Virus record (IMG/VR): IMGVR_UViG_3300017917_004235
Span: 1 to 24,797 of that record
Direction: 5' to 3' (one strand)
Source: a virus
DNA length: 24,797 bases
The translations under genes and the position numbers were made by a program. Under the pieces are notes generated by a model, which saw only the letters and a list, made by a program, of their open reading frames with translations, was not told the origin of the DNA and did no database searches. Of the stretch, positions 2,638 to 20,205 are shown in pieces (position 1 is the stretch's first letter; every line of letters begins with the position of its first letter).

Positions 2638-4772
2638 GTTAAACACATTATGTCATATACTATAACAAGTTCTACTATTATTTCTTGTCCACTCAATGAA
2701 TTGTTAGTTTTACTTGTTTCTATTGTTATTTGATTGTTTATTGCATCTATTGTTACGTTACCCACACCCGAAATACTCAATAAGAGACTTTTTAATGTAT
2801 CATACCAAAGATTATCACTTGGTGCGTTAACTAATGTAGTTGCGGTGAAGAATGTTTGTGTTACAACCGTACCTAAAGGTTTAACCGAAACTTTTGCAGT
2901 AAATATTGCCGATACTAAATCACAACTGGTGTTACCTGATGTTAAATCGACAAACCCCTCATTTAACATTTGAAGTAATCCTAATTTGGATGGTGATTGA
3001 ACATTAAACACTTCACTACCCATAACATATGTTTGATATGAAACATATGACGTTGCACAATCTATTGATGTTGTTCTACTAAGTGAGCACCCATTATTAT
3101 CCACAATTATTATACTATACGTACCGGCAGTTAATCCTGTTGCAATAATTTCTTGTGGATTATTTGGGACGTTATTTGACCAATTAAATGTAAATGGTGG
3201 TTTTCCTGATGTAATTATAGTTGTTATTGAACCATCAGAACCATTTCCACACGAAGTTGAGTATAGGGTATAGTTCAAATTTTCACTAGATGTTATATAA
3301 AATTGAGTGGTTTGAGTACATCCAATAGCATCAACAACAGATATTGTATGTTGCCCTGCGGACAAATTTGTAAACGTTACCGCCGACAAATTTGTATCAA
3401 TTACACTAGTCGAATTATCTAAAATATAGTCATACGGTGCAGTTCCTCCAACAGATTTTGTTACAGTAACCAATCCGTTATTTTGATTACAAGTTGTTCC
3501 TGTAACCGATGTTCCTATTGTAAATGAGTTTTCATTAATTAAAATTACTTCGGTAGTATAATAACAAGATGAACTATCTTGCACAATTACTCCATATACC
3601 CCAGTATCTAAATTAGAAAAAATTTGAGTGGTTTGTGAACTACTAACATTATCTTGACTATAATCAGGGTAAATTAATGTATACTGATATGGTGTTGTGC
3701 CTCCGACCACTGAAATTGAAATTTGTCCATTGGTCGCATTACAGGTAGAATTTTGGCCATTAACCGTAACGGAAGCCATTCCAAGAGGTGTTAATAATGT
3801 AACATTTGTAAGTAATTGGCAAAGACCTGAATCAGTAACTAAAAAATTATAATTTCCTGACGATAAACCTGAAAGAGAATATGTTTGTGAATACGATATT
3901 AAGACATCTCCTGTAGATGCCGAATAGTAATAAGGTGCGGTTCCTCCGGTAATTGTTAAATTAATCACACCATCACTTGCAAAACAACTTGGTTGTGTTA
4001 CTGTAAAAATTCCAAGCCCTATTTGGTCAACATCTACAACCGTGGTTGATTGTGTTTGACTACATCCTTTTGCATCAGTCACCGTAACAGAATAATCACC
4101 TTTGGTTAATCCTGTTATTGAGCTGGTTGTGAAAGCATTACTCCAAACATATGTATATGGTGGAACTCCTGTTTGTCCTGTAACAAATATTTTACCTATG
4201 GGTGTTCCTCCACAACTTGAATTTGGTACGGTATATAATCCAAAATTAAATTCACTTGAGTTTTCAATAATGAAGGTTTGGCTTTGTCCTGAACATCCTC
4301 CTAAGTCTTGTGCAATCAAATAATATGTTCCAGCACTTAATCCGCCAAATGTTATTGTTGATAAATTTGTAGTTCCTGATTGTACAAATGTATTATCTGA
4401 TTGATATACGTAAAAATTAGTTGATGAATACAACGATGTTGATGTTCCTGTCACTGATCCGTTAAATAAATTACAAGTTGTGTTTTGAACCGCAACAATA
4501 CTACAACAAACTCCACTTGAGACAGGTATATTGATGTAGAATGAACTATTTGTTGGCACCATACTATCATTAACCCTAACAGAATATACCCCACTAGATA
4601 GTCCTGTTTGTATTGCAGGTTCTGTTGTTATTACATCAGGTGGAAATACAGGATCAACCCAATCAACGGTATATGGTGGAACTCCCCCATATAACTCAAG
4701 ACTAATTACGCCCGAGCTTGTATTTAAACAGTCCCCTGTTAAAGCTAAATTATAATTAAATGGTGTTGCCAT
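2634..4772 (-). CDS. Tail adhesin with seven SprB-like repeats and a shared C-terminal docking domain
   Basis: The 712-residue protein contains seven Ig-like units of about 65-85 residues (roughly residues 8-82, 93-170, 180-245, 256-328, 335-412, 420-494 and 501-570). Each has Cys near its start, then a Gly-Gly/Gly-x-x-P-Y/F-x-Y/F strand, a GL-x-x-G-x-Y turn and, in units 2-7, a closing D-x-x-G-C or similar; unit 1 lacks the closing Cys. This is the pattern of SprB repeats of Bacteroidota surface adhesins. Residues 572-712 form a different domain that is also found at the end of the 995-residue protein encoded just upstream. No signal peptide is present, as expected for a virion protein. The start ATG overlaps the preceding stop by one base (TAATG), which suggests coupled translation. 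A receptor-binding tail fibre or tail-tip protein is the best reading; a decoration role is possible. Confidence 0.85.
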   Translation of the reverse strand: MATPFNYNLALTGDCLNTSSGVISLELYGGVPPYTVDWVDPVFPPDVITTEPAIQTGLSSGVYSVRVNDSMVPTNSSFYINIPVSSGVCCSIVAVQNTTCNLFNGSVTGTSTSLYSSTNFYVYQSDNTFVQSGTTNLSTITFGGLSAGTYYLIAQDLGGCSGQSQTFIIENSSEFNFGLYTVPNSSCGGTPIGKIFVTGQTGVPPYTYVWSNAFTTSSITGLTKGDYSVTVTDAKGCSQTQSTTVVDVDQIGLGIFTVTQPSCFASDGVINLTITGGTAPYYYSASTGDVLISYSQTYSLSGLSSGNYNFLVTDSGLCQLLTNVTLLTPLGMASVTVNGQNSTCNATNGQISISVVGGTTPYQYTLIYPDYSQDNVSSSQTTQIFSNLDTGVYGVIVQDSSSCYYTTEVILINENSFTIGTSVTGTTCNQNNGLVTVTKSVGGTAPYDYILDNSTSVIDTNLSAVTFTNLSAGQHTISVVDAIGCTQTTQFYITSSENLNYTLYSTSCGNGSDGSITTIITSGKPPFTFNWSNNVPNNPQEIIATGLTAGTYSIIIVDNNGCSLSRTTSIDCATSYVSYQTYVMGSEVFNVQSPSKLGLLQMLNEGFVDLTSGNTSCDLVSAIFTAKVSVKPLGTVVTQTFFTATTLVNAPSDNLWYDTLKSLLLSISGVGNVTIDAINNQITIETSKTNNSLSGQEIIVELVIVYDIMCLT
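3063..4751 (-). repeat. Seven tandem SprB-like protein repeats
   Basis: This region codes for residues 8-570 of the 712-residue tail protein. The paired Cys positions are about 100/160, 187/237, 263/318, 344/403, 428/485 and 508/562. Spacing between units is regular at about 75-85 residues. The repeats have diverged, so this is a protein-level and not a DNA-level repeat. Confidence 0.8.
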
Positions 4773-7759
4773 TAAGGATTAATGTTATTACAGTTTATAT
4801 CTATATTAATGCCGACATTTAATGTCAAAGTCTCTTCAAGATTTTGTGGTGTACAAGTTAAACTTGTTATCGTCAACATATTACCATTTAAGAAATAAGT
4901 AAAACCATAATCATAAATCTGTGGTAAAAATTGAATTAGAGAATTTCTCCATAAACTATTAGATGGAACATCGGTACTACCATATCCCGTATAAAATTGT
5001 TCTTGTATTAAAATTTGACCATTAATTCTCAAATCAACGTACCATTTAGACTCAACAGAATTTAATGAACATTGAGTTGGTAATAAATTATTTTGTGTCA
5101 ATAAATTATTAATTCTATTATTTAATATACTACTAAAGTTTGAAACACTTACATCACCATTAAGCCAAGGATATATTGAAAAATCAACATACTCTGTTGA
5201 ACAGGTGTAATCAAAAATATTCCCAATAATATAACAAGGTTCTACAGGAACCGGTATGAATTGACACCCTCTTTGTCTTCTATATACAAATTTTTGTTTT
5301 TGAAAAATTGAATTCTCAAGTCTGGTTCCTCCATTCCAAATAGTTGTTGCGGGAATCATTTGTTCAACCAATTTTGTCCAATATGGACCAATACCATTTA
5401 CATAGTCTATCAATTTTTGATATGTGTACTTGTTATTTGGTATTCCAACGGTGGCTTCCGATTCGAGGTATTTCCAAAAAATAGATTGCAATGTTGGATA
5501 TCCTCCTGTTTTTCCGTCAGTAATATATTGTCTATTTCTAACATTAATCATATTTTCCCAAAATGTTTGTGAAAATTCAAAAAATGTTTTTTTCTTTGGT
5601 TGTGGATCAATAAATGTTGAATCAATTCCGCCAGGGACAGGGTAACTGACAGTTAAACCCGATTCAGGAATCGGATAATCGTATTTTCTCGACATATCCC
5701 AAACATCATATAATAGTCCTTGTGATGGGTTCATGAATATATCAACATTCTTAACATTTAAGACTAATTTTTCATTATCAACAAAATAATAAGCATTATA
5801 GTCCCCTTGTGTTGATACTCTTATTTTATCATCGTCTTTCAACCATGATTTATTATTATCAACAATTCTTCTTAACTTAAATCCTTCATTCATATATGGA
5901 AAATCTCTGAATCTATCCAAATATGTTTGTCCATAAGTAAATGGTTGTAATTGTGTTTGTATATTATAGTTTTGTCCTGTATATACTTGACCAGTAATTT
6001 GAACTTGATCAGGACTTCTATGTGATGGTGTTGTCTCGTACCAACCCGCACCTATTTGGAAAAAAAATGTTTCCGTATTTTTTGGTGCCTTAGGATATCC
6101 CTCGGCGTCGATTGGGTAATCATTTAAATTAATTCGGGTGTATTCATAAACTGAGCTAGAAGTGAATGCTGTATATGTTTTTCCTTTAATCTTATATGTT
6201 GCACCCGTTAGGTAACCCGGTACTTGGTCAACATAGGTTCCTCCAGATATTTTAGCCCACTGTGTTTCAAATTGGTCTAAATTTATTTTTTGGTCTGCTA
6301 AATAAATGTGCTCATTATATTCAATTAAAGAATCGGGAGCACCTATTAATCTCATTATAAACTCAACAGACCTTCTAGTTCCTTTAGATTTAAAAAGATA
6401 AGAAGCATTTAGAATTAAATTTCTATAATATGCATAATTTAATTCTGTCGGAGTCAATGCCTTTGTATATCCCGGATAAGTTGGTGTATTAGTATTACCA
6501 AAAATTGAATCTAAAAAGTCTTCATTCGTGATAGGTGAGAAGTTTGAACTCCATCCTAATGTTTGTGATAGATTAACCAATAATTGTGATGGTATATCGT
6601 TCTCAGGGTTATAATTAACTGAGTTCATATATGCCAACCCATCGATAAATTGTTTTATTTGGTCAAAACTTCTGCCGTATATTTGAAATATTTTTTCAAC
6701 TTTTTGTCCTAAAGTATCAAATTCTTTTAATGAATCTGTCACCAAAAATCTTGAAATTAAATTTGTTTTGAAACTATCTAAATTAACCGCAATATCTTGT
6801 AATTGTTGTAAATAATCGTCGAACCTAAATGACCTAATATCTAAATTCCACGGACCATCTTTTGGCCAAGTAACTTGTTGATAATCGGTATAGAATTGCC
6901 CATCTTGATTTTGTTGTGGTACCTGAAAAACCGCGGTGTATTCGGGTCTAATTAATCTATTCAACAAAAATTGTTCAATCTCATCAAAATTTTCAGAGAA
7001 TGATTTATCAACAATATAGTCATTAGGTCTTATTTGAAAATCTAAATTTGTAGTTGTTGCTGTTGTTCCAAAAGGCGAGCCTGAAACATAAAAAGCAATT
7101 GAACCTGAGGTCATTGTTAATGATGGTTGGAATGATACGACTTTAAAGATATCATCATTAATACTAACACAATAATCCAAGTAAGTATCATATAGATTTC
7201 TATATGGCGATACAGTAATTTCTCTTGCGGAAATATTTGTTGCAGCACTGACGGTATAATCAATATCAAAAGGATTAACAATCCTATCAACATTAACCTC
7301 AAAATATGTTTCATTTGTTACTGAATCATAACTTATATTCACCGCAGTACTACCTGTTGTATAATCAGGTGCATTGAATACTATATCTAAAGATGCTGGA
7401 AAATAATTAATTATTTTTGTGATTGACACACTGAATCTTTTCGCCAAAGACCCATACATCGAAAAATTTAAAACTTCAGAAACATCATAATTAGGATAAA
7501 CACTAAATTGAGTGGCCTGAATTCTTCTACTTTCAATCAGACTATCTATATTCATCGCATCTAAAGTCATTGGTTCTGAGAACGCTCCGACATTAAATGT
7601 TCTATTAACTTTTTCAGTTACCCCTGTAGTAAATTCAAAATTACCTTGCGTAAGACCTCCTCCATCAACAATTTGTAAACCTACTATATTGTCTGAAAAA
7701 GTTCCCGCACCATTTCCTGGTCTCGGTGGATAAAAATATTTTGTTCTTGATGTTGCCAT
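4772..7759 (-). CDS. Large tail/baseplate protein with P2 gpI-like motif
   Basis: The 995-residue protein starts MATSRTKYFYPPRPGNG. The N-terminal third is beta-rich. About residues 270-470 look helical, and near residues 450-470 comes a stretch with FKSKGTRRSVEF and RLIGAP; a K-G-T-R/K motif followed by a hydrophobic helix and L-x-G-x-P is characteristic of P2 gpI-like tail proteins that lie at the baseplate periphery. The C-terminal domain (853-995, starting C-S-T-E-Y-V and ending D-I-N-C) is shared with the 712-residue adhesin. The gene starts in a TAATG overlap with the preceding stop and ends in a TAATG overlap with the adhesin gene. I infer that it connects the baseplate to the tail fibres; the gpI relationship rests on a short motif and is moderate. 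Confidence 0.7.
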   Translation of the reverse strand: MATSRTKYFYPPRPGNGAGTFSDNIVGLQIVDGGGLTQGNFEFTTGVTEKVNRTFNVGAFSEPMTLDAMNIDSLIESRRIQATQFSVYPNYDVSEVLNFSMYGSLAKRFSVSITKIINYFPASLDIVFNAPDYTTGSTAVNISYDSVTNETYFEVNVDRIVNPFDIDYTVSAATNISAREITVSPYRNLYDTYLDYCVSINDDIFKVVSFQPSLTMTSGSIAFYVSGSPFGTTATTTNLDFQIRPNDYIVDKSFSENFDEIEQFLLNRLIRPEYTAVFQVPQQNQDGQFYTDYQQVTWPKDGPWNLDIRSFRFDDYLQQLQDIAVNLDSFKTNLISRFLVTDSLKEFDTLGQKVEKIFQIYGRSFDQIKQFIDGLAYMNSVNYNPENDIPSQLLVNLSQTLGWSSNFSPITNEDFLDSIFGNTNTPTYPGYTKALTPTELNYAYYRNLILNASYLFKSKGTRRSVEFIMRLIGAPDSLIEYNEHIYLADQKINLDQFETQWAKISGGTYVDQVPGYLTGATYKIKGKTYTAFTSSSVYEYTRINLNDYPIDAEGYPKAPKNTETFFFQIGAGWYETTPSHRSPDQVQITGQVYTGQNYNIQTQLQPFTYGQTYLDRFRDFPYMNEGFKLRRIVDNNKSWLKDDDKIRVSTQGDYNAYYFVDNEKLVLNVKNVDIFMNPSQGLLYDVWDMSRKYDYPIPESGLTVSYPVPGGIDSTFIDPQPKKKTFFEFSQTFWENMINVRNRQYITDGKTGGYPTLQSIFWKYLESEATVGIPNNKYTYQKLIDYVNGIGPYWTKLVEQMIPATTIWNGGTRLENSIFQKQKFVYRRQRGCQFIPVPVEPCYIIGNIFDYTCSTEYVDFSIYPWLNGDVSVSNFSSILNNRINNLLTQNNLLPTQCSLNSVESKWYVDLRINGQILIQEQFYTGYGSTDVPSNSLWRNSLIQFLPQIYDYGFTYFLNGNMLTITSLTCTPQNLEETLTLNVGINIDINCNNINP

Positions 7760-8668: not shown

Positions 8669-9241
8669 TTATATTATTTTATTTCCTTTTATTAAATTAT
8701 CTTTACACCATAATGGTTGTAAATTGGTATAGTGACATAATCTTACAATATCTTTCTCATTTTTAGCTAACGATAGTGGTATTATGTGGTCAACATGCCA
8801 CATACCATAATTACCCCATGACATACCATTTGTGAATTTTTTTTCCAAATACTCTTTTAAAGAAAAAGGGTCAATACCAATCAATTCAAAAGTTTTATTA
8901 TTTTTACTAATATTATGTTTCCTAACATACTTACTAATTCTATTTCTAACATTCTGTTTCAACTTATACAAAAAATCCTCATCCCTTTTTGTTTTTTCAT
9001 AAGTATTCCTATACCCCTTATTTTCAATTCTGTATTTTTTTGCATAATTAAGTTTGATGTCGTGATTCTCATAGTAAACTTTTTTACTTCTATCTATGAT
9101 TTTTTCACTATTATTCTTGTAATATTCTTTCAGATATTCTTTCACACATTGTTTACAACGACTTTCATATCTCCCTGTGTCCTGACGAAATGAAAATTCA
9201 TTTAATTCTTTTTTAATATTACATTTACCACATTCTTTCAT
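8669..9241 (-). CDS. HNH endonuclease (free-standing, probably homing)
   Basis: The 190-residue protein has an N-terminal zinc-ribbon-like pair (C4-x-x-C7 and C29-x-x-C32), a Lys/Tyr-rich helical middle part that probably contacts DNA, and a C-terminal HNH domain. The catalytic core is visible as H149-V-D151-H152-I-I-P, the central Asn in YTNLQPLWC (N173) and K-D-N182-L-I-K-G-N187. It is expected to nick or cut double-stranded DNA with metal help. It sits between two tail genes, 15 bases after one stop and one base before the next start. Hand counts of three 60-base lines inside it (starting 8881, 9001, 9061) give 11, 15 and 15 G+C, against 22, 24 and 27 for lines at 8161, 8221 and 9541. Both facts suggest recent acquisition. 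There is no sign that it lies in an intron or intein. Confidence 0.9.
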   Translation of the reverse strand: MKECGKCNIKKELNEFSFRQDTGRYESRCKQCVKEYLKEYYKNNSEKIIDRSKKVYYENHDIKLNYAKKYRIENKGYRNTYEKTKRDEDFLYKLKQNVRNRISKYVRKHNISKNNKTFELIGIDPFSLKEYLEKKFTNGMSWGNYGMWHVDHIIPLSLAKNEKDIVRLCHYTNLQPLWCKDNLIKGNKII

Positions 9242-11156: not shown

Positions 11157-12837
11157 CAATAATTGGTTTTACTGGGTAACTAACACCAAGTAAGTTGGCG
11201 TTGTAGTTTATTCCTTCAGGTATCAATCTAAACATAACATCTTGAAATGGGTATTGTGCTCCGTTTAAAAATGGATAATTAACGCCTCTACCTAAATTGT
11301 CAATGAACCCATAAGTATATAGGTCTCTCCATCTAAATTGTTGGTCTGAATTTGAAAAATATGACCAACTAGGTACTTGGTCTATGAAGGCAACATCTCC
11401 CGTTTCGATATAATCTGAGAAAACTCGTATTGTCATCTCATTATGAGGTGTATAATAAAATCCAGGAGCATTATTGTTTGGTGGTGGTGTGGTTTGAAAT
11501 ACATCTTGATTGTATTTCATCTTTTGATAGTATGGTGATACGACTCTTTCAAGTTGCTCGTAATCATTCCATTCACAAAAATCACCATCAATAACATCAT
11601 CTTTTTTTAAATCCAAATTATAATAAAATGTTTTAGTTGCTCCGTTAGTTTTAGTATAAGATGAGACTTGAATATTAGTATTTGAGTTTATATTATTGTC
11701 ACTCCAATATGCATTAGATGTATTACTTAAATTAAAACCCCATCCTTGTTTTAACCCAACACCATTAAATGGTTTATTAAAATAGCCAGAATATCCTTTA
11801 TTAATTATAGTTAAATAAATCTTACTTATCGGTCTTTTTTGATTATCTAAAACACTATAAAAGTCGAAATCATAATTCACAGTAACATTATATGCATTAC
11901 TACTTGTTTTTTGAGAAATTCTTGAGACTTTATTTGGGGTAATTGAACTATATTCAAATTTTTTTTCTTCATTAAAAACATTTTTTTCAAATCCTGCCTT
12001 TGTAACCACCATATCTTCTAAATTGGTAATTATTTTATGCTCTCTAACATAATATTTTGACCTTGTCTCCTCTAAATTAGTTGGATTTATAACTCTTTTG
12101 AACGTTCCTTTTACTCCATTATTAAATGTTGTTCCTGTAAATCCGATATTAAATAAAGTAAAAATATATTCATCACTACCTAATTTACCATTACCTAATG
12201 AGTAAACTTGAAATAAATTATTATTGTTATAACTAAATGACAACTCAACATATTCCCCTACGCTAAGTCCGTGTGATGATACACATTCAAATGATATCAC
12301 TCTATTGCCATTATCGGTAATATTATTAATTTTAAATGGAATACCTGCGGAAGCCGTCCACGTAAAATTACTATTATTCAATATATAAGATAATTCTTTA
12401 TCGTAATTATTTCTATGTGGATATGATACATAATAAGACCAATTATAGGTATACGCACTCTTGGATTTATACGATATATGTTGGTCGTTTACGTCAGGTC
12501 TATACATATCAAATTCATAATATTGAGGTATTCCTTTCCAATTATTATTAAACGATGACGCTTCCGCATCAATATAGTACAAATTATATTGAAATGGTAG
12601 ATATGAAGTTGACCCTGTATAGGTGTTCGCGTATAAATAAGTTATTTTAAATGTTGGCCTAAATATTGTAGATGACTGTCTTTCATCATCAAAAACTTGA
12701 GCTAAACTAACTGTAGAATTTCTATCATACTCGGTTATCAACTGACTTTGTTGGTCTAGTCCTATTGTAATCTCTTGGTCTACACTTGCAGCCCCTTGAT
12801 ATTCTAAACTACTTGGTATGATAGTATATTTATTCAC
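11143..12837 (-). CDS. Baseplate-region structural protein (564 aa), in the gp8 position
   Basis: The start is a GTG at 12837 that overlaps the stop of the 1656-residue gene by eight bases; the protein reads MNKYTIIPSSLEYQG. It is beta-rich, with many Tyr, Asn and Ser, and a short Pro-Pro-Pro segment at about residue 445. The N-terminal DQEITIGLDQQ resembles KTINVQLDQE of the upstream protein. I recognise no catalytic or membrane motif. In T4 the order 25-6-7-8 is conserved, so this gene takes the place of gene 8, but I see no sequence proof of homology. It overlaps the next gene by 14 bases (or eight if that gene uses GTG). Confidence 0.65.
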   Translation of the reverse strand: MNKYTIIPSSLEYQGAASVDQEITIGLDQQSQLITEYDRNSTVSLAQVFDDERQSSTIFRPTFKITYLYANTYTGSTSYLPFQYNLYYIDAEASSFNNNWKGIPQYYEFDMYRPDVNDQHISYKSKSAYTYNWSYYVSYPHRNNYDKELSYILNNSNFTWTASAGIPFKINNITDNGNRVISFECVSSHGLSVGEYVELSFSYNNNNLFQVYSLGNGKLGSDEYIFTLFNIGFTGTTFNNGVKGTFKRVINPTNLEETRSKYYVREHKIITNLEDMVVTKAGFEKNVFNEEKKFEYSSITPNKVSRISQKTSSNAYNVTVNYDFDFYSVLDNQKRPISKIYLTIINKGYSGYFNKPFNGVGLKQGWGFNLSNTSNAYWSDNNINSNTNIQVSSYTKTNGATKTFYYNLDLKKDDVIDGDFCEWNDYEQLERVVSPYYQKMKYNQDVFQTTPPPNNNAPGFYYTPHNEMTIRVFSDYIETGDVAFIDQVPSWSYFSNSDQQFRWRDLYTYGFIDNLGRGVNYPFLNGAQYPFQDVMFRLIPEGINYNANLLGVSYPVKPIIDGCE

Positions 12838-15800
12838 TTATTGAATATTTTGTTTTGAATTTATCTAATGCGGAATCTCCTTTAACAACCCCAAAATAAA
12901 ATTGGTACGGTGCACCTACTAAAAATTTACTACTCACGGCACCTGTACTAATATAATTTCCATTACCATCTACACTAAAAATATATCCTCTAGCATTTAA
13001 ATCATTTGATATTGCACTCTGATTTTGAAAATATTTTGTGTTTAATGTTGTTCTATCTAATCCTTGATAATATGTATTTTGAATAATATCAGAGGTTGTT
13101 GTTGCCCATGTATTATTTTGATTACCAAATATTGTATTTGTATTATTCAATTTCCATTGGTAGAATGGTACCATTTGTGATTTAATACCATACGGGTATG
13201 GGGTCCACCCAACATTATTTGCACCTCTGAAATCAATCCTTCCAGGTGTTAAATAATCTTTGGTTTGTAAATCTTGTGTTGTAGATGAAAACCAGACTGC
13301 AACAATCGGATCTTTAGGTGACCCTAAAATAGTTGTTGGTGGTCCTCCAGTTGTATCATAAAATTCAGGCGAGAAATTAATATTACCTATTTCAGAATTA
13401 ATTGACATTAATTGTGCCAAATCCCCATCAATTCTTTTTTCAGGCCTACTGAATAGTTGATTTAATGAATTATCACCTAAAGATATAATTTGTTGTAAAA
13501 ATCCTTCATCAGTTATTCTTGAAATGACAAATAAATTTATTAAGTCTGACGTATCCCCATAACTTGTTGGGTTTATATTTGGTATAATATACCCCTTAGT
13601 TGTTGGGTCAAAAGTTATCTCACTATAAAAAGAATCCTTAACACCTAAATTAATGATTGTTGTAGGAAATAATAAATTTACATCGTTAACTGTATTCCGA
13701 TTATTTGTTTTCATACCAACAAACTTATTAGTATTTTCATTATATGGACTACTTCTATAGTAAAAATTATTTGTTTTATCGTCAAAATAAACTAAATTGT
13801 AACAAAATCTTGGATACTCAGGTTTGTTTTGTTTATCATAATATGTATCCACTTGAATTGGGAACATATAAAGTGCTCCGTTAATCCAATTATTAACAAA
13901 TGATTGTGATAATACCCCTCTACAAAGTCCATAAAAGAATCTAAATCTAAAGCCCCATTCACCAAAATTTCCAATATCTTTAAATAAATCAAATAATGGT
14001 CGTCTCATGAACATATAACACCCTCTTTCTACAGCATCTTTTTCAGTACAACTTTGATTAATACTAAAATCACCACCAAATCCCTGGTAACAATTTAATC
14101 CTACCATTGACTCACAATTAAAACTATCTAACACCTTTAACGAATTAGGTAATCCTTCAATATCAGGAACCACCTGTTCTGCACCAGTACTAAACGCAGT
14201 TGAGCTTATGTCTCCTTCATCGGTATACAAAAGATATATTCCAAAAAAATTATTTTGTTGTAATATTGCCGGATTATTATCCCAAGAACCTCCATCCAAT
14301 AGGTCTGATGTTGGTAGTCTATCTGTTCTAAAAATATTTAAATTTGGTGTTCCGATATATAAATTCGGATTTCCTGCAAATAAACTTTTAGTAAAATAGT
14401 TATAATTTAACCCTAATCGATAATTTGACGTGGTGATTGTTGAGGTGTTATAGTTCGCACAAGACATCATTCCTACACCTGAAACATCTTCGCTACTATC
14501 GTACCTACCGCTGTTTGGTCCCGCATAATAAAACCCATTAGATGTTTGTGAGATAACTTGATTACCACTGATTGTTGATCTTTGTGGTTGTGGTAGTGTC
14601 GTCCTATCTAATTGACCGTAATATGCGGTATTTGTTGTTGTAAATGCAGTAAAAACACCTCCAGGTTGATTTTCAACGTTTCCTTCATATAATGATACTG
14701 ACCATGAAGTATATGTTCCGTTACCTGTAAATCCTGTAATTGTATCAAAAACTAATTTTCCAGTTATAACATCATAGCTTTGAACTCTAGCATACACAAA
14801 ATTTGATGCGTCGTGTTCAATTTTAATATATTGATCCTCAACATAACTTAATCCTGTCCCCACCATCAAAGTTCCAGGAACTTGACCAAGTGTATATGAT
14901 GTTGTTGATGTTGTATTAAAAAATACGCCAGGTTTAAAGAAATAAGACCCATAATAAACTTCGGATTGAATTCCATAGGGTTGTACAGATACTGATGTGT
15001 TGTTTAATTTTTGTATTGGTATGTTTAACCTTGTTTTGGCGGTAAATGTCCAATTAGGGTCCGAATCATTAGTACCAAATATTGAACCTAATTTATATTC
15101 ATTAGCATATTTTGGAGAATATGGGTCAACTCCTCTTTGTAAAACTAAAATATATTGTTCTCCAAAACCTTCGTAAAATTCTGAAGGATTAATGGATTTG
15201 GTCGCCTGTACTTTAAATAAAGAACCTGACGGTATCCATTCATACACTGTAGTTGGACTATTAAGTAGATCAGGTAACGCCTGTGGTGTTGATTTATTCC
15301 AAATTTTGGATGCTTGTGAAACCGTTAAAGCAGTAACAACTTGATAGTACTCAAAATCTGCAGGGTATTTGTAATTATTCTCCGCAGAACCGTAAGGTAG
15401 GTTATATTGTACTGTTAAGTTACTTGTTTGAGATGCAACTCCAGGGTCGGCGTATGAAACATTTACTTTGGTCGCGCCTGTTCCTGTTATTGACGTACCA
15501 CTAATACCTGTAACAATACCGTTCACGGTATTTGCACTATATAGATAGTTAACATCTGTTGTTCCACTAATATTAACAAATGTTAGTAAATCACCGGCAT
15601 TAAATTGTTGTGTAGATAATACGGTTATTGAATTATCGTAGTGCGATTTATTTACATTTGAATCTTTTGCAAAGGTCACACTCATCCTATTTTTACCTAA
15701 AAAATAATCTTTTCTTTGATTAAATAAGTTAATTCTTTCTCCTAATGGTAAATCTTTGGATGAGGTATGATAATATTGGTCATTACTCATTTTCACACTT

Positions 15801-17800
15801 TCGGACAATGGAACCTTATATGATGATGGGTCAGCTTTAAGTGCGGTTATGTTTAAACCTGCAACAGCCTCACTATACATCAACGACCAATTATCCATAT
15901 TTTCTGTTTCTTCAGAAAAATATGTTTGGAATGCGGTTGTATAATACTGAGGACTCGACAAATAACTTAAAACACCAGATGGTGCAACACCAGTACTAAG
16001 TGCCGGACCCGTCGTTAATGTGCTTTTACAATCACAAGCTTGACAATCAGGATATGTAATCATTGGGAGTCTTATTGTATAATCCCTTTTATTACACCCA
16101 ATATTTAATAAATTACATACCCACCCAAACGGTCTTACACAAAATTTCCAAATACAAATTTGAAAATGACATAACCCACATAAAAAACCAATAACTAAAT
16201 TATATAAGAAAATTATTATATGAGCAACAATTAATACTGATAAAACTATTGGTTGTATTATTGTGAAAATAATTGAGAATAAGAAAAATAATAAATCAAA
16301 ATTTCTAAACCCATCGTTAACAGGAAACTTATTTACACTACTACTACAAGAATCATCATCTATTTCTTTAATCCCAATAAACCTACCTTTAGCACCTTTT
16401 TTATATTCATCAATTAATGATGATACTGTATAAACTCTATTATATTGAAATTCATAAAACGTATCTTCGCCATTAATACAGTCATTTAATTTTTCTGTTT
16501 TTTCTGTTCCTGAAAATCCGTCTGTATATCCGCTCCATGCTAACCCAAAATAGTATGAGCTTGATAATTTTTTTCTAGTTAATGTGTTATTTGAATATAA
16601 TGGGTCGCTTGATGAATTAGACCATCCATATTCTCTAACATTTGGTACTAAATAATATGGTCTTCTTGTTTGTTGTGTCAGGTCATTTGGTTGTTGCCAT
16701 TTAACTTTGAATCGATATTTTGCTTTAGTTGGAATTCCGATTGTTGGGTCATGAGATATTACTTTTTCACCATATTGATTTGTGATATAGTAATCTAAAT
16801 TCATCGGTAGTTCTGTCATCCAAGTACCACTACCATCAATAATGTTACCTGCCTGTTCTAATTGAAATTGTTCAAGTACAGGATTTCCATCAACATCTTG
16901 ATTAATTGTTTGTCTAATTGCAAGTATTTGTCCTGGTGATGTTATTAGATTACATAAATTACCCATGTTATCTCTTGGCTTACAATTTTTTCTAACTCTA
17001 AAATTGTCTATAGTTGAAAACATGGATCCCATGAAAACGGCAGTTGGTCTAATATCCACATTCGCATCATCCCTTAAATCAAAATCAATTCGATTAATTG
17101 ATATATCACAAAGTCCTGGATCACCCCACAATGGAGATATTTCAGTATTTTTGGTTATTGAAATAATTTGAGGTAATGAATTCAAATCATTTGAACTTCT
17201 AAATTGATTTCCCGCAACTTGAGCTTCTGTTGCAAGTCCCATTCTAATTAAATCTTGCGGTGTTAGTGAAAACTCACCTATATCTGAAAGGTCAACATCC
17301 ATTACTAAAGTTTGATAACCAAGTGGTGCCCCCATAATCATATAATCACCACTTTCATTAGTTTTTGATGTAAATTTGTAATATTTGTCGTAAATCTCAA
17401 TCACAGTGTTACCAGTTAAAACATCCAATCTTGTTGGTAATGTTCCTGTGGCTGCGTGTTTTGTATATGATTTTTCGTAAGGTAATAAGTTATATCTATA
17501 TCCATCTTCATTTTTATCTGAAGGTGATTTGTAAGGGTAAATACTTGAAATTAATGGGTTAGATTCGTCGATATTATCTATGGGTATAAAGACAGAAACT
17601 CTGGCGTTAGGTATTCCAAATCCGTTATTTGCGGTTATTCTACCAACAACAACACCATAATCCGCACAAGCTCTTAAGTATATGTCCTCTTGCTGTAATT
17701 TTAGTGAAAGTATTTCCAAGAACTCATATTCTTGGTCAAGTTGCACGTTAATTGTTTTGTTAATACCTAGTTCGGTTTTTATTCTATATGAATCTCCCAT
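12830..17800 (-). CDS. Giant baseplate protein (1656 aa) with split beta-sandwich and internal hydrophobic Cys-rich segment; gp7 position
   Basis: The start is the ATG at 17800 (MGDSYRIKTELG); a TTG one codon earlier is open but unlikely. An AAGG six bases before the ATG is one of the few Shine-Dalgarno-like sites here. Residues about 48-72 (VVGRITANNG, IPNARVSVF) and about 145-170 (T-N-E-S-G-D-Y, AP-x-GY) look like the two halves of a carboxypeptidase-regulatory-like beta-sandwich split by a 70-residue insertion. Residues 503-549 are a nearly uninterrupted hydrophobic stretch long enough for two membrane helices, followed by a Cys-rich part; nine Cys lie between 541 and 591. The remaining 1000 residues are beta-rich structural sequence with a second Cys cluster near residues 1220-1260. 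By position after gp25 and gp6 it may replace T4 gp7 (a 1032-residue wedge protein), but that is inferred from order only. Confidence 0.75.
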   Translation of the reverse strand: MGDSYRIKTELGINKTINVQLDQEYEFLEILSLKLQQEDIYLRACADYGVVVGRITANNGFGIPNARVSVFIPIDNIDESNPLISSIYPYKSPSDKNEDGYRYNLLPYEKSYTKHAATGTLPTRLDVLTGNTVIEIYDKYYKFTSKTNESGDYMIMGAPLGYQTLVMDVDLSDIGEFSLTPQDLIRMGLATEAQVAGNQFRSSNDLNSLPQIISITKNTEISPLWGDPGLCDISINRIDFDLRDDANVDIRPTAVFMGSMFSTIDNFRVRKNCKPRDNMGNLCNLITSPGQILAIRQTINQDVDGNPVLEQFQLEQAGNIIDGSGTWMTELPMNLDYYITNQYGEKVISHDPTIGIPTKAKYRFKVKWQQPNDLTQQTRRPYYLVPNVREYGWSNSSSDPLYSNNTLTRKKLSSSYYFGLAWSGYTDGFSGTEKTEKLNDCINGEDTFYEFQYNRVYTVSSLIDEYKKGAKGRFIGIKEIDDDSCSSSVNKFPVNDGFRNFDLLFFLFSIIFTIIQPIVLSVLIVAHIIIFLYNLVIGFLCGLCHFQICIWKFCVRPFGWVCNLLNIGCNKRDYTIRLPMITYPDCQACDCKSTLTTGPALSTGVAPSGVLSYLSSPQYYTTAFQTYFSEETENMDNWSLMYSEAVAGLNITALKADPSSYKVPLSESVKMSNDQYYHTSSKDLPLGERINLFNQRKDYFLGKNRMSVTFAKDSNVNKSHYDNSITVLSTQQFNAGDLLTFVNISGTTDVNYLYSANTVNGIVTGISGTSITGTGATKVNVSYADPGVASQTSNLTVQYNLPYGSAENNYKYPADFEYYQVVTALTVSQASKIWNKSTPQALPDLLNSPTTVYEWIPSGSLFKVQATKSINPSEFYEGFGEQYILVLQRGVDPYSPKYANEYKLGSIFGTNDSDPNWTFTAKTRLNIPIQKLNNTSVSVQPYGIQSEVYYGSYFFKPGVFFNTTSTTSYTLGQVPGTLMVGTGLSYVEDQYIKIEHDASNFVYARVQSYDVITGKLVFDTITGFTGNGTYTSWSVSLYEGNVENQPGGVFTAFTTTNTAYYGQLDRTTLPQPQRSTISGNQVISQTSNGFYYAGPNSGRYDSSEDVSGVGMMSCANYNTSTITTSNYRLGLNYNYFTKSLFAGNPNLYIGTPNLNIFRTDRLPTSDLLDGGSWDNNPAILQQNNFFGIYLLYTDEGDISSTAFSTGAEQVVPDIEGLPNSLKVLDSFNCESMVGLNCYQGFGGDFSINQSCTEKDAVERGCYMFMRRPLFDLFKDIGNFGEWGFRFRFFYGLCRGVLSQSFVNNWINGALYMFPIQVDTYYDKQNKPEYPRFCYNLVYFDDKTNNFYYRSSPYNENTNKFVGMKTNNRNTVNDVNLLFPTTIINLGVKDSFYSEITFDPTTKGYIIPNINPTSYGDTSDLINLFVISRITDEGFLQQIISLGDNSLNQLFSRPEKRIDGDLAQLMSINSEIGNINFSPEFYDTTGGPPTTILGSPKDPIVAVWFSSTTQDLQTKDYLTPGRIDFRGANNVGWTPYPYGIKSQMVPFYQWKLNNTNTIFGNQNNTWATTTSDIIQNTYYQGLDRTTLNTKYFQNQSAISNDLNARGYIFSVDGNGNYISTGAVSSKFLVGAPYQFYFGVVKGDSALDKFKTKYSISE
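16028..16294 (-). other. Predicted membrane-spanning, Cys-rich segment inside the giant baseplate protein
   Basis: This codes for residues 503-591. The first part has no charged residue from L503 to about K552 (only H528-type polar residues, numbered 527 and 545 here), which is enough for two helices of about 22 residues. Cys occur at 541, 544, 549, 554, 562, 569, 586, 589 and 591, the last three as C-x-x-C-x-C. The flanks are charged and polar. Confidence 0.75.
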
Positions 17801-17890
17801 CAAATACCTTTAGTTAATAAATAGTTTATGTGGAATTTTTACAATAACACACAGATAAATGATAATCTAAAGATTAAAGAAATAAACCTG
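17801..17890. other. 90-base A/T-rich gap between gp6-like and giant baseplate genes
   Basis: This is the longest gap inside the structural operon. It holds a short interrupted palindrome (TAATCT at 17863-17868 and AGATTA at 17871-17876) and, next to the giant gene, an AAGG that could act as a ribosome binding site. No ORF or convincing promoter is seen. Confidence 0.5.
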
Positions 17891-19729
17891 TTAAGAAAAA
17901 GTGACTGATTGGAAGTTTTTAACCGATACTCTAATATCTTTGTTTGGATATCTTATTTGATATACTTGAGACGGTTGTGCAAAAATTGTATCGTCAACTG
18001 GCCCTATTTGTTTAAGTGCCGGGTCTGAATAAACCATTGATGTTTCTGCGGAAGAATATTGACCCCCAACTTCATTAAAAACATCAATACTTGCAACCGT
18101 TAAAACACCATTTAGATTTTGAATAATACTTCTCACTTCAGACAAATACACATTTTGACCTAATTGTCTTGTCTGTGGGTTCATATATGTTGAAACTGCA
18201 TCAATAACACTTGTAATTACTTGACCAGAATTTTGGGCGGAATCAAGAACTATTGAGATGTCAAAACTTAAATCAATAACTTCAGCAGTGAAGATTGAAA
18301 TGTAATCATTCATCATTCTATAATTTGACAAATAATTTGCAATATTTTGTTTTAAGGTATTCGATACAATATTTGTCAATTTACCTGAAGAATCATAAGA
18401 TAATATTTGAATTAAAATCTTATTGTCGTTTTCAGTTATTGAAACTTTGGCAGGTGCTCCGAATTGTGCCGGCATGTTTCTAATTAAAGATTCATAGTCT
18501 TGAACTGTAACCGCCCTTTTTTGAGCTGCGAAATTAAATGAAACATAGTTTCTAATTTCCTCTAAAGAAGGTATACCTGCACCTCCAACCGCGGCGGTAA
18601 CGTTGTTACATCTAAGTGATGATATTACTGATGAGTTTGTGGTTTCCGATGGCCCGTTCACAAAGAAAGAAACTGTACCAACTTGATTAATAACATTAGT
18701 TCCGACATTTGTTGCTAATCCACCACCAACTCTATATTGAATAAATAATGTTGAGTTAGGTGTTAATGTTGAACCTAAAGAAAAATTATTTGAATATCTT
18801 TGTAAGTCTAAAGTTGTCCCTACTGTGGTAAATTGATTTAAGGCGTCTTGTGCGGTATTTGTACCTCCTCCAAAAGTCATTTTTTTAAATCCTTCTGCAG
18901 TATATTCTGTCATAAATCTATTACTTGTTTGAATATATCTACCAACTTTAATACCTGGCATGTCAGAAACTTTTGTTGGGTCTTCGATGAAGACTCTATC
19001 TTCAGCCAAAGCGTCTACTTCATACCATCTATTATCAAGCCCTAAAAATTCTGCGGTTGTTGGTACGTTTGTATATTCTGTTCCATCTTTCAATAAAACA
19101 CTAGTAATACCTAAAACATTCTTTTCAGGTAAAAATAATTCGAAGAATGGTTTTACATCATTTGGAGAAATAACTCTCTTAAAGACTTTAGTAATACCAT
19201 TAACAACAACTTCTCTTTTTGTGATTGTATAGTTTAATAAAACACCATTAGAGTTGAAATTTGGTATTTTTAATCTGTTTGGAAAACCTTGAGAATTGTA
19301 CGGTGACGCAAAATCAATATCGTATATATTTTCAAACACCATCCCCGCACCAATAACTTGTGAACCTCTCAATAGTGAACCAAGATATCTTTCATCTTCT
19401 TTATCCCCATAAGCTGGCACCGTAATTGAAAAATCAACTAATGAAACTGATGGTCTTTGTCCTGGTAATTTTAACCCATAGGTTCTGGCAATATTGTATA
19501 TAGATGACCTTTGTTGAGCATATTGTAAGACAGTTTCTTGTATGCTTCTGTCAATATGATAATGTAGGTTATCTGCAACCGCAGCGTTTAAATCGATAAA
19601 AACAGAAAATACTGAAGCGTCATTAAAGTCCTGAATTAATTCAGGATAATATGTTTTAACATAATTTAATAATTCAGTTCTTATTCCCTGATAATCTCTA
19701 GTTGTGTATGATATTTTACGATTAGCCAT
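17891..19729 (-). CDS. gp6: Baseplate wedge protein, T4 gp6-like (baseplate J family)
   Basis: The 612-residue protein starts MANRKISYTTRDYQG. Its N-terminal part has the gp6/baseplate-J pattern: a Y-P-E-L, then D-F-N-D-A-S-V-F (35-41), D-L-N-A-A-V-A-D-N-L-H-Y-H-I-D-R (46-61) and E-T-V-L at 65-68. The C-terminal half, with R-A-V-T-V-Q-D-Y-E-S-L and a later A-L-K-Q-I-G, also fits the family; T4 gp6 has 660 residues. In T4 gp6 dimers form the ring of wedges around the baseplate hub and transmit the contraction signal. The gene begins five bases after the gp25-like stop, as in T4-like phages where 25 and 6 are adjacent. No clear Shine-Dalgarno is present. Confidence 0.9.
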   Translation of the reverse strand: MANRKISYTTRDYQGIRTELLNYVKTYYPELIQDFNDASVFSVFIDLNAAVADNLHYHIDRSIQETVLQYAQQRSSIYNIARTYGLKLPGQRPSVSLVDFSITVPAYGDKEDERYLGSLLRGSQVIGAGMVFENIYDIDFASPYNSQGFPNRLKIPNFNSNGVLLNYTITKREVVVNGITKVFKRVISPNDVKPFFELFLPEKNVLGITSVLLKDGTEYTNVPTTAEFLGLDNRWYEVDALAEDRVFIEDPTKVSDMPGIKVGRYIQTSNRFMTEYTAEGFKKMTFGGGTNTAQDALNQFTTVGTTLDLQRYSNNFSLGSTLTPNSTLFIQYRVGGGLATNVGTNVINQVGTVSFFVNGPSETTNSSVISSLRCNNVTAAVGGAGIPSLEEIRNYVSFNFAAQKRAVTVQDYESLIRNMPAQFGAPAKVSITENDNKILIQILSYDSSGKLTNIVSNTLKQNIANYLSNYRMMNDYISIFTAEVIDLSFDISIVLDSAQNSGQVITSVIDAVSTYMNPQTRQLGQNVYLSEVRSIIQNLNGVLTVASIDVFNEVGGQYSSAETSMVYSDPALKQIGPVDDTIFAQPSQVYQIRYPNKDIRVSVKNFQSVTFS

Positions 19730-19734
19730 CTATG

Positions 19735-20205
19735 TTAAATATTAATAATAACAAAATCACTCTGGGCGAAAGTTGTTCTATTTGTAGAATAATCTATTTT
19801 TATTTTTGCAGTATATTCTGAAGTTCCTTTACCAGGAAATCTATATATAGAAATATCTGAAGGACCTGTAATGTTAGTTTGGGTCCCCGCAACAACTTCA
19901 TCCATAGGGTCTGCCGGTTCTATTGTTATATTGTTTAATAATAAATTTGGCATGTATTTTTCAACTGAATCTCTAATATCAGATTCAATCGCATCAAATG
20001 TTAAACCATCGAAAGGTTCAAATAAAAATTCATATAAACGAGTTCCAAAATCAGGTAAAAAGTATCTTGACCCCTTTCTTGTTAATAACAAATGAATTAA
20101 ATCAGCTTTAACTTCTTGCGATTCTAATTCTGTTAGTTCTAAATAATCCCCTCTTGTTGAATTTCTAAAGGGAAAATTTAATCCATATGTAATACCGTTT
20201 GCCAT
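19735..20205 (-). CDS. gp25: Baseplate wedge protein, gp25-like (GPW/gp25 family)
   Basis: The 156-residue protein contains the family core: L-L-L-T-R-K-G-S-R (39-47), P-D-F-G-T-R-L-Y-E-F-L-F-E-P (51-64), then an I-x-x-x-I-R-D-S-V helix and N-N-I-T-I-E-P. T4 gp25 has 132 residues; the extra length is at the C-terminus. In contractile machines this protein lies where the sheath begins and links the wedge to the inner baseplate; the old lysozyme label is not supported by structure. It starts 21 bases after the DUF5522-like gene and is directly followed by the gp6-like gene. It marks the first structural gene of the window. Confidence 0.9.
   Translation of the reverse strand: MANGITYGLNFPFRNSTRGDYLELTELESQEVKADLIHLLLTRKGSRYFLPDFGTRLYEFLFEPFDGLTFDAIESDIRDSVEKYMPNLLLNNITIEPADPMDEVVAGTQTNITGPSDISIYRFPGKGTSEYTAKIKIDYSTNRTTFAQSDFVIINI

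Follow-up and report, generated by a model that had tools for sequence, protein, structure and literature searches.

A conserved hydrophobic insert with a cysteine neck, a candidate membrane part of a giant baseplate-region protein in uncultivated contractile-tailed phages

Introduction

Few models are known for the way in which baseplates of contractile phages hold or pass host membranes, and dedicated membrane parts are mainly those of type VI secretion and of a few membrane-anchored injection systems. In phage T4, protein gp7 of the (gp6)2-gp7 wedge module (AF158101 gene 7, L153:7061-10159) carries a conserved hydrophobic segment at residues 886-904, for which the GenBank annotation gives a predicted integral membrane domain. 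Such a segment alone is therefore not foreign to wedge proteins, and the statement in a preliminary description of the present locus that T4-like wedge proteins are soluble does not hold for gp7. In the thylakoid-anchored contractile injection system, Cis12 contacts the membrane, and proper anchoring depends on a transmembrane helix predicted in the fibre-like Cis13 (PMC8894136). A baseplate part reaching the membrane is suspected in an archaeal system (PMC11566945). These known membrane-reaching parts are different proteins from the giant protein described here. By analogy with Cis12 and Cis13, which are baseplate-associated and reach the membrane, the same may be proposed for a module within the giant protein. 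Cis13 forms fibre-like trimers and has its helix at the C-terminus, whereas the element of the giant protein is internal, has a swappable tip and is a candidate anchor. The module is a conserved candidate membrane part inside a phage baseplate protein. Its family is unannotated and has hundreds of members, including natural variants with and without the module, so that the membrane question is testable by structure and simple membrane-binding assays.

Genome organization

The sequence analyzed is IMG/VR record IMGVR_UViG_3300017917_004235 (positions 1-24,797), a 24.8-kb virus sequence; this whole stretch of 24,797 nucleotides is called the window. The minus strand starts, in transcription order, with genes for a DnaB-like helicase, ribonucleotide reductase, gp25, gp6 (Baseplate_J) and the giant protein. 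Further 3' on the same strand lie ORFs of 564, 273, 359, 190 (endonuclease VII), 302, 995 and 712 aa. The endonuclease VII-like gene (8669-9241) sits inside the tail operon, is present in 20 of 207 related loci and looks like a mobile insertion. The genes that matter for the comparison are:

19735-20205, minus strand: gp25-like protein (PF04965, E 3e-10)
17891-19729, minus strand: gp6-like baseplate wedge protein, Baseplate_J (PHROG 6/219, E 3e-22; Pfam PF04865)
12830-17800, minus strand: giant baseplate-region protein, 1656 aa (open frame; gp6/gp25 synteny in relatives)
4772-7759, minus strand: 995-aa protein, likely gp7 counterpart (hhalign probability 94.9%, E 4.5e-8)

The ORF of the giant protein (12830-17803, minus strand) opens with TTG-ATG; the 1656 codons and all residue numbers are counted from the ATG at 17800. 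The giant gene lies directly downstream of gp6, as a member of the T4 gp7 wedge family would. A single scan of IMG/VR gave 438 stretches encoding relatives. Among close relatives, gp6 and gp25 lie upstream of the giant gene in all 175 eligible loci. Among distant ones, gp6 lies upstream in 79 of 79 loci with enough sequence and is at most 400 nt away in 65 of the 79. The giant protein is probably a structural baseplate-region component of a large group of uncultivated contractile-tailed phages.

Relation to gp7

T4 gp7 resembles the giant protein in being large, encoded directly after gp6 and equipped with a conserved hydrophobic segment. In T4, however, this segment comprises about 20 residues near the C-terminus, without a Cys neck or an exchangeable tip. 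Alignment of the giant protein with T4 gp7 by hhalign gave a probability of 0.1-0.2%, with no detectable sequence or profile similarity. Sister phages whose gp6 shows about 28% identity (Flavobacterium phage immuto, Microcystis phage Mel-JY01 and a 484-kb uncultured phage) encode two proteins after gp6, one of about 375 aa and a large one whose length is about 1000-1900 aa. The family of these large proteins matches the product of 4772-7759 in hhalign (94.9%, E 4.5e-8); its score with the giant protein is 0.3%, and other pairings are below 1%. No homology was found between the giant protein and the tail proteins of the sister phages, and none of 39 sister-phage loci encodes a comparable membrane-like protein downstream, save for one borderline 393-aa ORF. 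Since the large sister-phage protein matches 4772-7759 and not the giant protein, the latter is probably an additional component and not the gp7 counterpart. By position and motif, the counterpart is likely to be the 995-aa ORF, which itself gave no significant match to T4 gp7. This ORF is found six genes beyond the giant gene, in the downstream direction; in the sister phages its counterpart lies two or three genes after gp6. Homology of the giant protein to T4 gp7 finds no support in the hhalign result, 4772-7759 is the better candidate for the gp7-like role, and the earlier placement of the insert in a T4-like post-gp6 wedge protein is not supported.

The insert in the single sequence

The preliminary description had pointed to positions 16028-16294, with a charge-free run at residues 503-549 and nine Cys within 51 residues. 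Base 16294 is indeed the first of residue 503 and base 16028 the last of C591; the nine Cys are residues 541, 544, 549, 554, 562, 569, 586, 589 and 591, and the charge-free run is slightly longer than described (49 residues, 503-551). In 2000 shuffles of the giant protein an uncharged run of at least 47 residues occurred in 2.75%, whereas nine Cys in 51 residues never occurred (0 of 2000; shuffle maximum 6). Given the composition, there is nothing extreme in the 19-residue hydropathy peak (2.68; shuffle mean 1.76, maximum 3.25). In the single sequence, the Cys clustering is therefore strongly unusual and the hydrophobicity moderately so. Thymine at the second codon position encodes hydrophobic residues. 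In an AT-rich genome, this and a hydropathy peak within the shuffle range would be compatible with an artefact of composition, mis-assembly or frame error. Such an artefact is nevertheless highly improbable: separate assemblies yielded more than 200 proteins that keep the insert, dN/dS in its helix and return segment is at most 0.11, and a product of composition or chance is rejected because of this conservation. The module, kept across hundreds of related viruses, is for that reason taken as a genuine functional part. Its parts are:

16346-16348, minus strand: Cys485, neck Cys ahead of the helix (143 of 143 close homologues; 87 of 90 ungapped superfamily rows)
16295-16333, minus strand: residues 490-502, NKFPVNDGFRNFD, junction motif before the hydrophobic helix (superfamily conservation)
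16181-16294, minus strand: residues 503-540, hydrophobic helix with one polar stripe (AlphaFold, periodicity, dN/dS 0.11)
16088-16180, minus strand: residues 541-571, variable tip, here of the Cys type (AlphaFold pLDDT about 85-91; tree)
16046-16087, minus strand: residues 572-585, conserved return segment ...IRLPMITYPD (conserved columns; dN/dS)
16028-16045, minus strand: residues 586-591, C-x-x-C-x-C, neck Cys after the insert (Cys conservation)

Conservation and exchange of the tip

A 19-residue Kyte-Doolittle window of at least 2.0 is present at the insert site in all 143 distinct close homologues (mean 2.5, lowest 2.0), always between an NKFPVN[DE]-like motif and YPxCxxC. In the same 143 homologues C485, C586, C589 and C591 are invariant. 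The superfamily alignment retains P493 (98/98) and N495 (96/98) of the junction motif as well as C586 (92/96) and C589 (94/94), and C591 in about half of the sequences. The insert ranges from 51 to 151 residues and consists of a bare helix, a helix plus a Cys mini-domain, or a helix plus two to four further uncharged hydrophobic helices (for example L012, L014, L139 and L354). None of the six middle Cys is found in 48 of the 143 close homologues, and a single one in 1 of 143. On a tree of the N-terminal 490 residues, from which the insert was left out, the tip type changes at least 14 times; the helix and neck stay. Well supported branches alone account for at least seven gains or losses of the Cys-type tip. 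The dN/dS ratio is 0.11 for the helix, 0.044 for residues 578-591 of the return segment, 0.18 for the tip and 0.054 for the N-terminal part. The helix and return segment are under purifying selection. The insert is thus an optional, modular element of neck, conserved helix, exchangeable tip and return segment, set in a conserved tail protein.

In this respect, the Cys cluster described earlier exists; its nine members do not form one unit, since three of them, all invariant in the close family, are Cys of the neck, and six belong to the variable tip. Likewise, conservation across homologues, proposed earlier as a sign of function, was found for the hydrophobic run and neck Cys and not for the middle Cys. 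The latter had been suggested to lock the baseplate; they are absent or reduced to one in 49 of the 143 close homologues, and this lack of conservation excludes them as a general lock.

A second strongly hydrophobic insert near residues 1010-1080, in the C-terminal half, occurs in 15 of the 143 close homologues (carriers include L049, L052, L102, L107, L114, L118, L169, L180 and L206). It sits in a variable stretch, at which the record has a different small module:

14690-14860, minus strand: residues 981-1037, small module in the variable stretch (50% identity, E 4e-5)

This 57-residue module shares about 50% identity with a portion of a tail-fibre-like protein with Gly/Ser/Thr repeats, encoded by the 735-kb phage LR756501, and matches to the giant protein among INPHARED phages are limited to it.

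Predicted structure and polarity

An AlphaFold run on residues 395-720 with 118 sequences gave a single continuous helix at 496-544, with pLDDT above 90 over most of its length. It is followed by a beta hairpin and a short helix holding the tip Cys, and then by a low-confidence return; the model is good for helix and tip and poor for the neck. For residues 1-1019 the model was poor (pLDDT 57.5). The two membrane helices or hairpin proposed in the preliminary description are thus replaced by one predicted helix with a small Cys mini-domain. Its view of the segment as an insert was upheld: the alternative that it is the core of an ordinary beta domain is rejected, as the insert is predicted to be helical, has an exchangeable tip and is missing from one lineage (see below). 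Foldseek with the model of residues 395-720 returned no significant match. The Cys-type tip has the layout CxxC - beta hairpin - short helix - C-x6-C. Treble-clef and zinc-ribbon Cys4 fingers likewise have CxxC, a beta hairpin, a short helix and two Cys; spacing and predicted fold would fit such a finger, and the likeness is limited to one tip type of the giant protein.

The polar residues of the helix (S509, T513, Q516, H527 and N534) lie on one face, with a periodicity of 99-100 degrees; by permutation, p is 0.003 for the close family, and for the superfamily the count is 0 of 5000. Outside this stripe the helix is greasy throughout. The confinement of polar residues to one face is the reverse of a soluble helix bundle. 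Polar inside and greasy outside is the pattern of helices bundled in lipid or enclosed by other proteins. The latter case corresponds to an ordinary buried helix packing between baseplate subunits, with the stripe at a subunit contact, the tip on a neighbour and no encounter with a membrane, the strongest alternative, which is given somewhat less than an even chance. The prediction of one continuous helix is consistent with it, as is the presence of the conserved segment 886-904 in T4 gp7, itself a wedge protein. The two to four extra uncharged helices of some tips and the second insert argue against it, since each would need a large new buried surface.

In the close family the base of the module is acidic and the tip basic (mean net charge -4.2 and +4.0, respectively). 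A basic tip on an acidic base, found in most members, is the polarity to be expected if the tip lies on the cytoplasmic side. It would suit a role in assembly, in which the segment fastens the growing baseplate, or the protein while still free, to the host membrane on its inner side and is later buried or released; that a membrane can hold a contractile baseplate is shown by the thylakoid-anchored system. The segment would, however, have to be exposed in the cell yet hidden in the particle, and this role is regarded as improbable.

Distant relatives and a lineage without the insert

Distant relatives were sought with a degenerate D-x-D-x-S-D-I-G pattern in which the next codon does not begin with G, so that the close family was skipped. 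Distant homologues are encoded at 114 of the 120 stretches found; an HMM of the conserved N-terminal 480 residues, a region that includes the pattern itself, matches at 114 of the 120 loci. Among 87 long distant homologues (N-terminal identity about 0.38-0.60, one at 0.32), a hydrophobic window of at least 1.6 is present at the insert site in 84; two others are just under this value (1.57 and 1.59), and L305 is the sole one without a hydrophobic stretch. The insert lies between P-x-N and YPxCxxC in all but the L305 lineage, and the return motif differs in some distant lineages. In some of these, Glu or Arg on the helix stripe makes the helix amphipathic rather than clearly membrane-spanning, and in the L358 group, with Glu/Arg on the stripe, no segment passes the membrane-insertion estimate. 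Such charged stripes favor the buried helix between subunits.

The relatives of L305 comprise 13 loci; those that are readable keep the protein and the FPxN junction, with the insert and both neck Cys replaced by soluble sequence. Homologues without the segment, which the preliminary description would have held against its importance, are thus restricted to one small distant lineage. The clean absence of the insert there shows that the fold does not need it, which argues against a helix buried as an ordinary part of the baseplate. Gain and loss of the insert are indistinguishable, since this lineage lies across the longest branch of the tree. By raw counts, which ignore kinship and include some "neither" cases with other Cys nearby, both parts of the neck are present in 211 sequences and both are missing from 11, while 8 have C485 alone and none has CxxC alone. 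The separate lineage without hydrophobic insert and neck Cys (loci L420-L432) keeps the giant protein and is a natural deletion with which the module can be compared.

Proposed role of the module

The module is proposed to be a membrane-contacting element of the gp6-adjacent baseplate protein that touches the host membrane; this is the best-supported reading, and its chances are evenly balanced. Counting for membrane contact are the conserved stretch at one junction, the high-confidence helix and the polar stripe on one face, and further the second hydrophobic insert (n = 15), the tip swaps, the gp6 synteny, the purifying selection and the acidic base with basic tip. Counting against it are the charged stripe of the L358 type, the T4 gp7 segment and the lineage that lives without the insert.

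The two ends of the insert would meet at a neck with conserved Cys, C485 presumably pairing with C586/C589 through a metal or a disulfide. If the module contacts the membrane, several copies per baseplate may keep their helices side by side through the polar stripes. On encounter with the cell, or on a change in the shape of the baseplate, the greasy faces and tip could become buried in the membrane, provided that the module is located in the virion as supposed. The buried module would then fix the baseplate around the entry point, with a tip adapted to the host. A helix that simply crosses the membrane once does not fit, because the insert begins and ends at the same neck. For the Cys-type tip of the record, a helix lying in the plane of the membrane or embedded in one leaflet is as likely as a spanning helix. 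The tips with several extra uncharged helices, as predicted, are hard to explain in a purely soluble part. The more specific proposal of an exchangeable membrane-insertion module with a Cys-clamped neck and finger or polytopic tips, by which the baseplate would dock in the host membrane or a port would be opened for the tube, is possible and rather unlikely.

Database matches and domain content

Pfam and PHROGs hold no family for the giant protein of the record, and a PDB sequence search found no solved chain that matches it. No homologue was found in host genomes of the GTDB collection or in the plasmids searched. A structure search of BFVD retrieved a homologue, A0A8S5LA66 of Myoviridae sp. 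ctPuP5 (E 3e-18; 32% identity over 618 columns), a named record annotated as uncharacterised, with no function given. One domain was recognized in the N-terminal part:

17291-17659, minus strand: residues 48-170, beta-sandwich (Foldseek and CarboxypepD_reg likeness)

The Foldseek matches of this domain are transthyretin and related sandwiches (best E 0.008), and CarboxypepD_reg was found in distant members below the cut-off (best E 1e-4). The domain resembles carboxypeptidase-regulatory-like/transthyretin sandwiches, below formal cut-offs; it is similar in kind to PF13620, for which every member tested scores below the Pfam cut-off. In six distant members searched against Pfam and PHROGs, the conserved N-terminal part and the insert had no match at cut-off, and the sole curated matches were C-terminal SprB/Hoc-like repeats in L374. 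In this distant homologue (L374:5067-9134) the C-terminal part carries SprB repeats (PF13573). Such repeats occur in gliding adhesins of Bacteroidota, and their presence is a hint of the host group.
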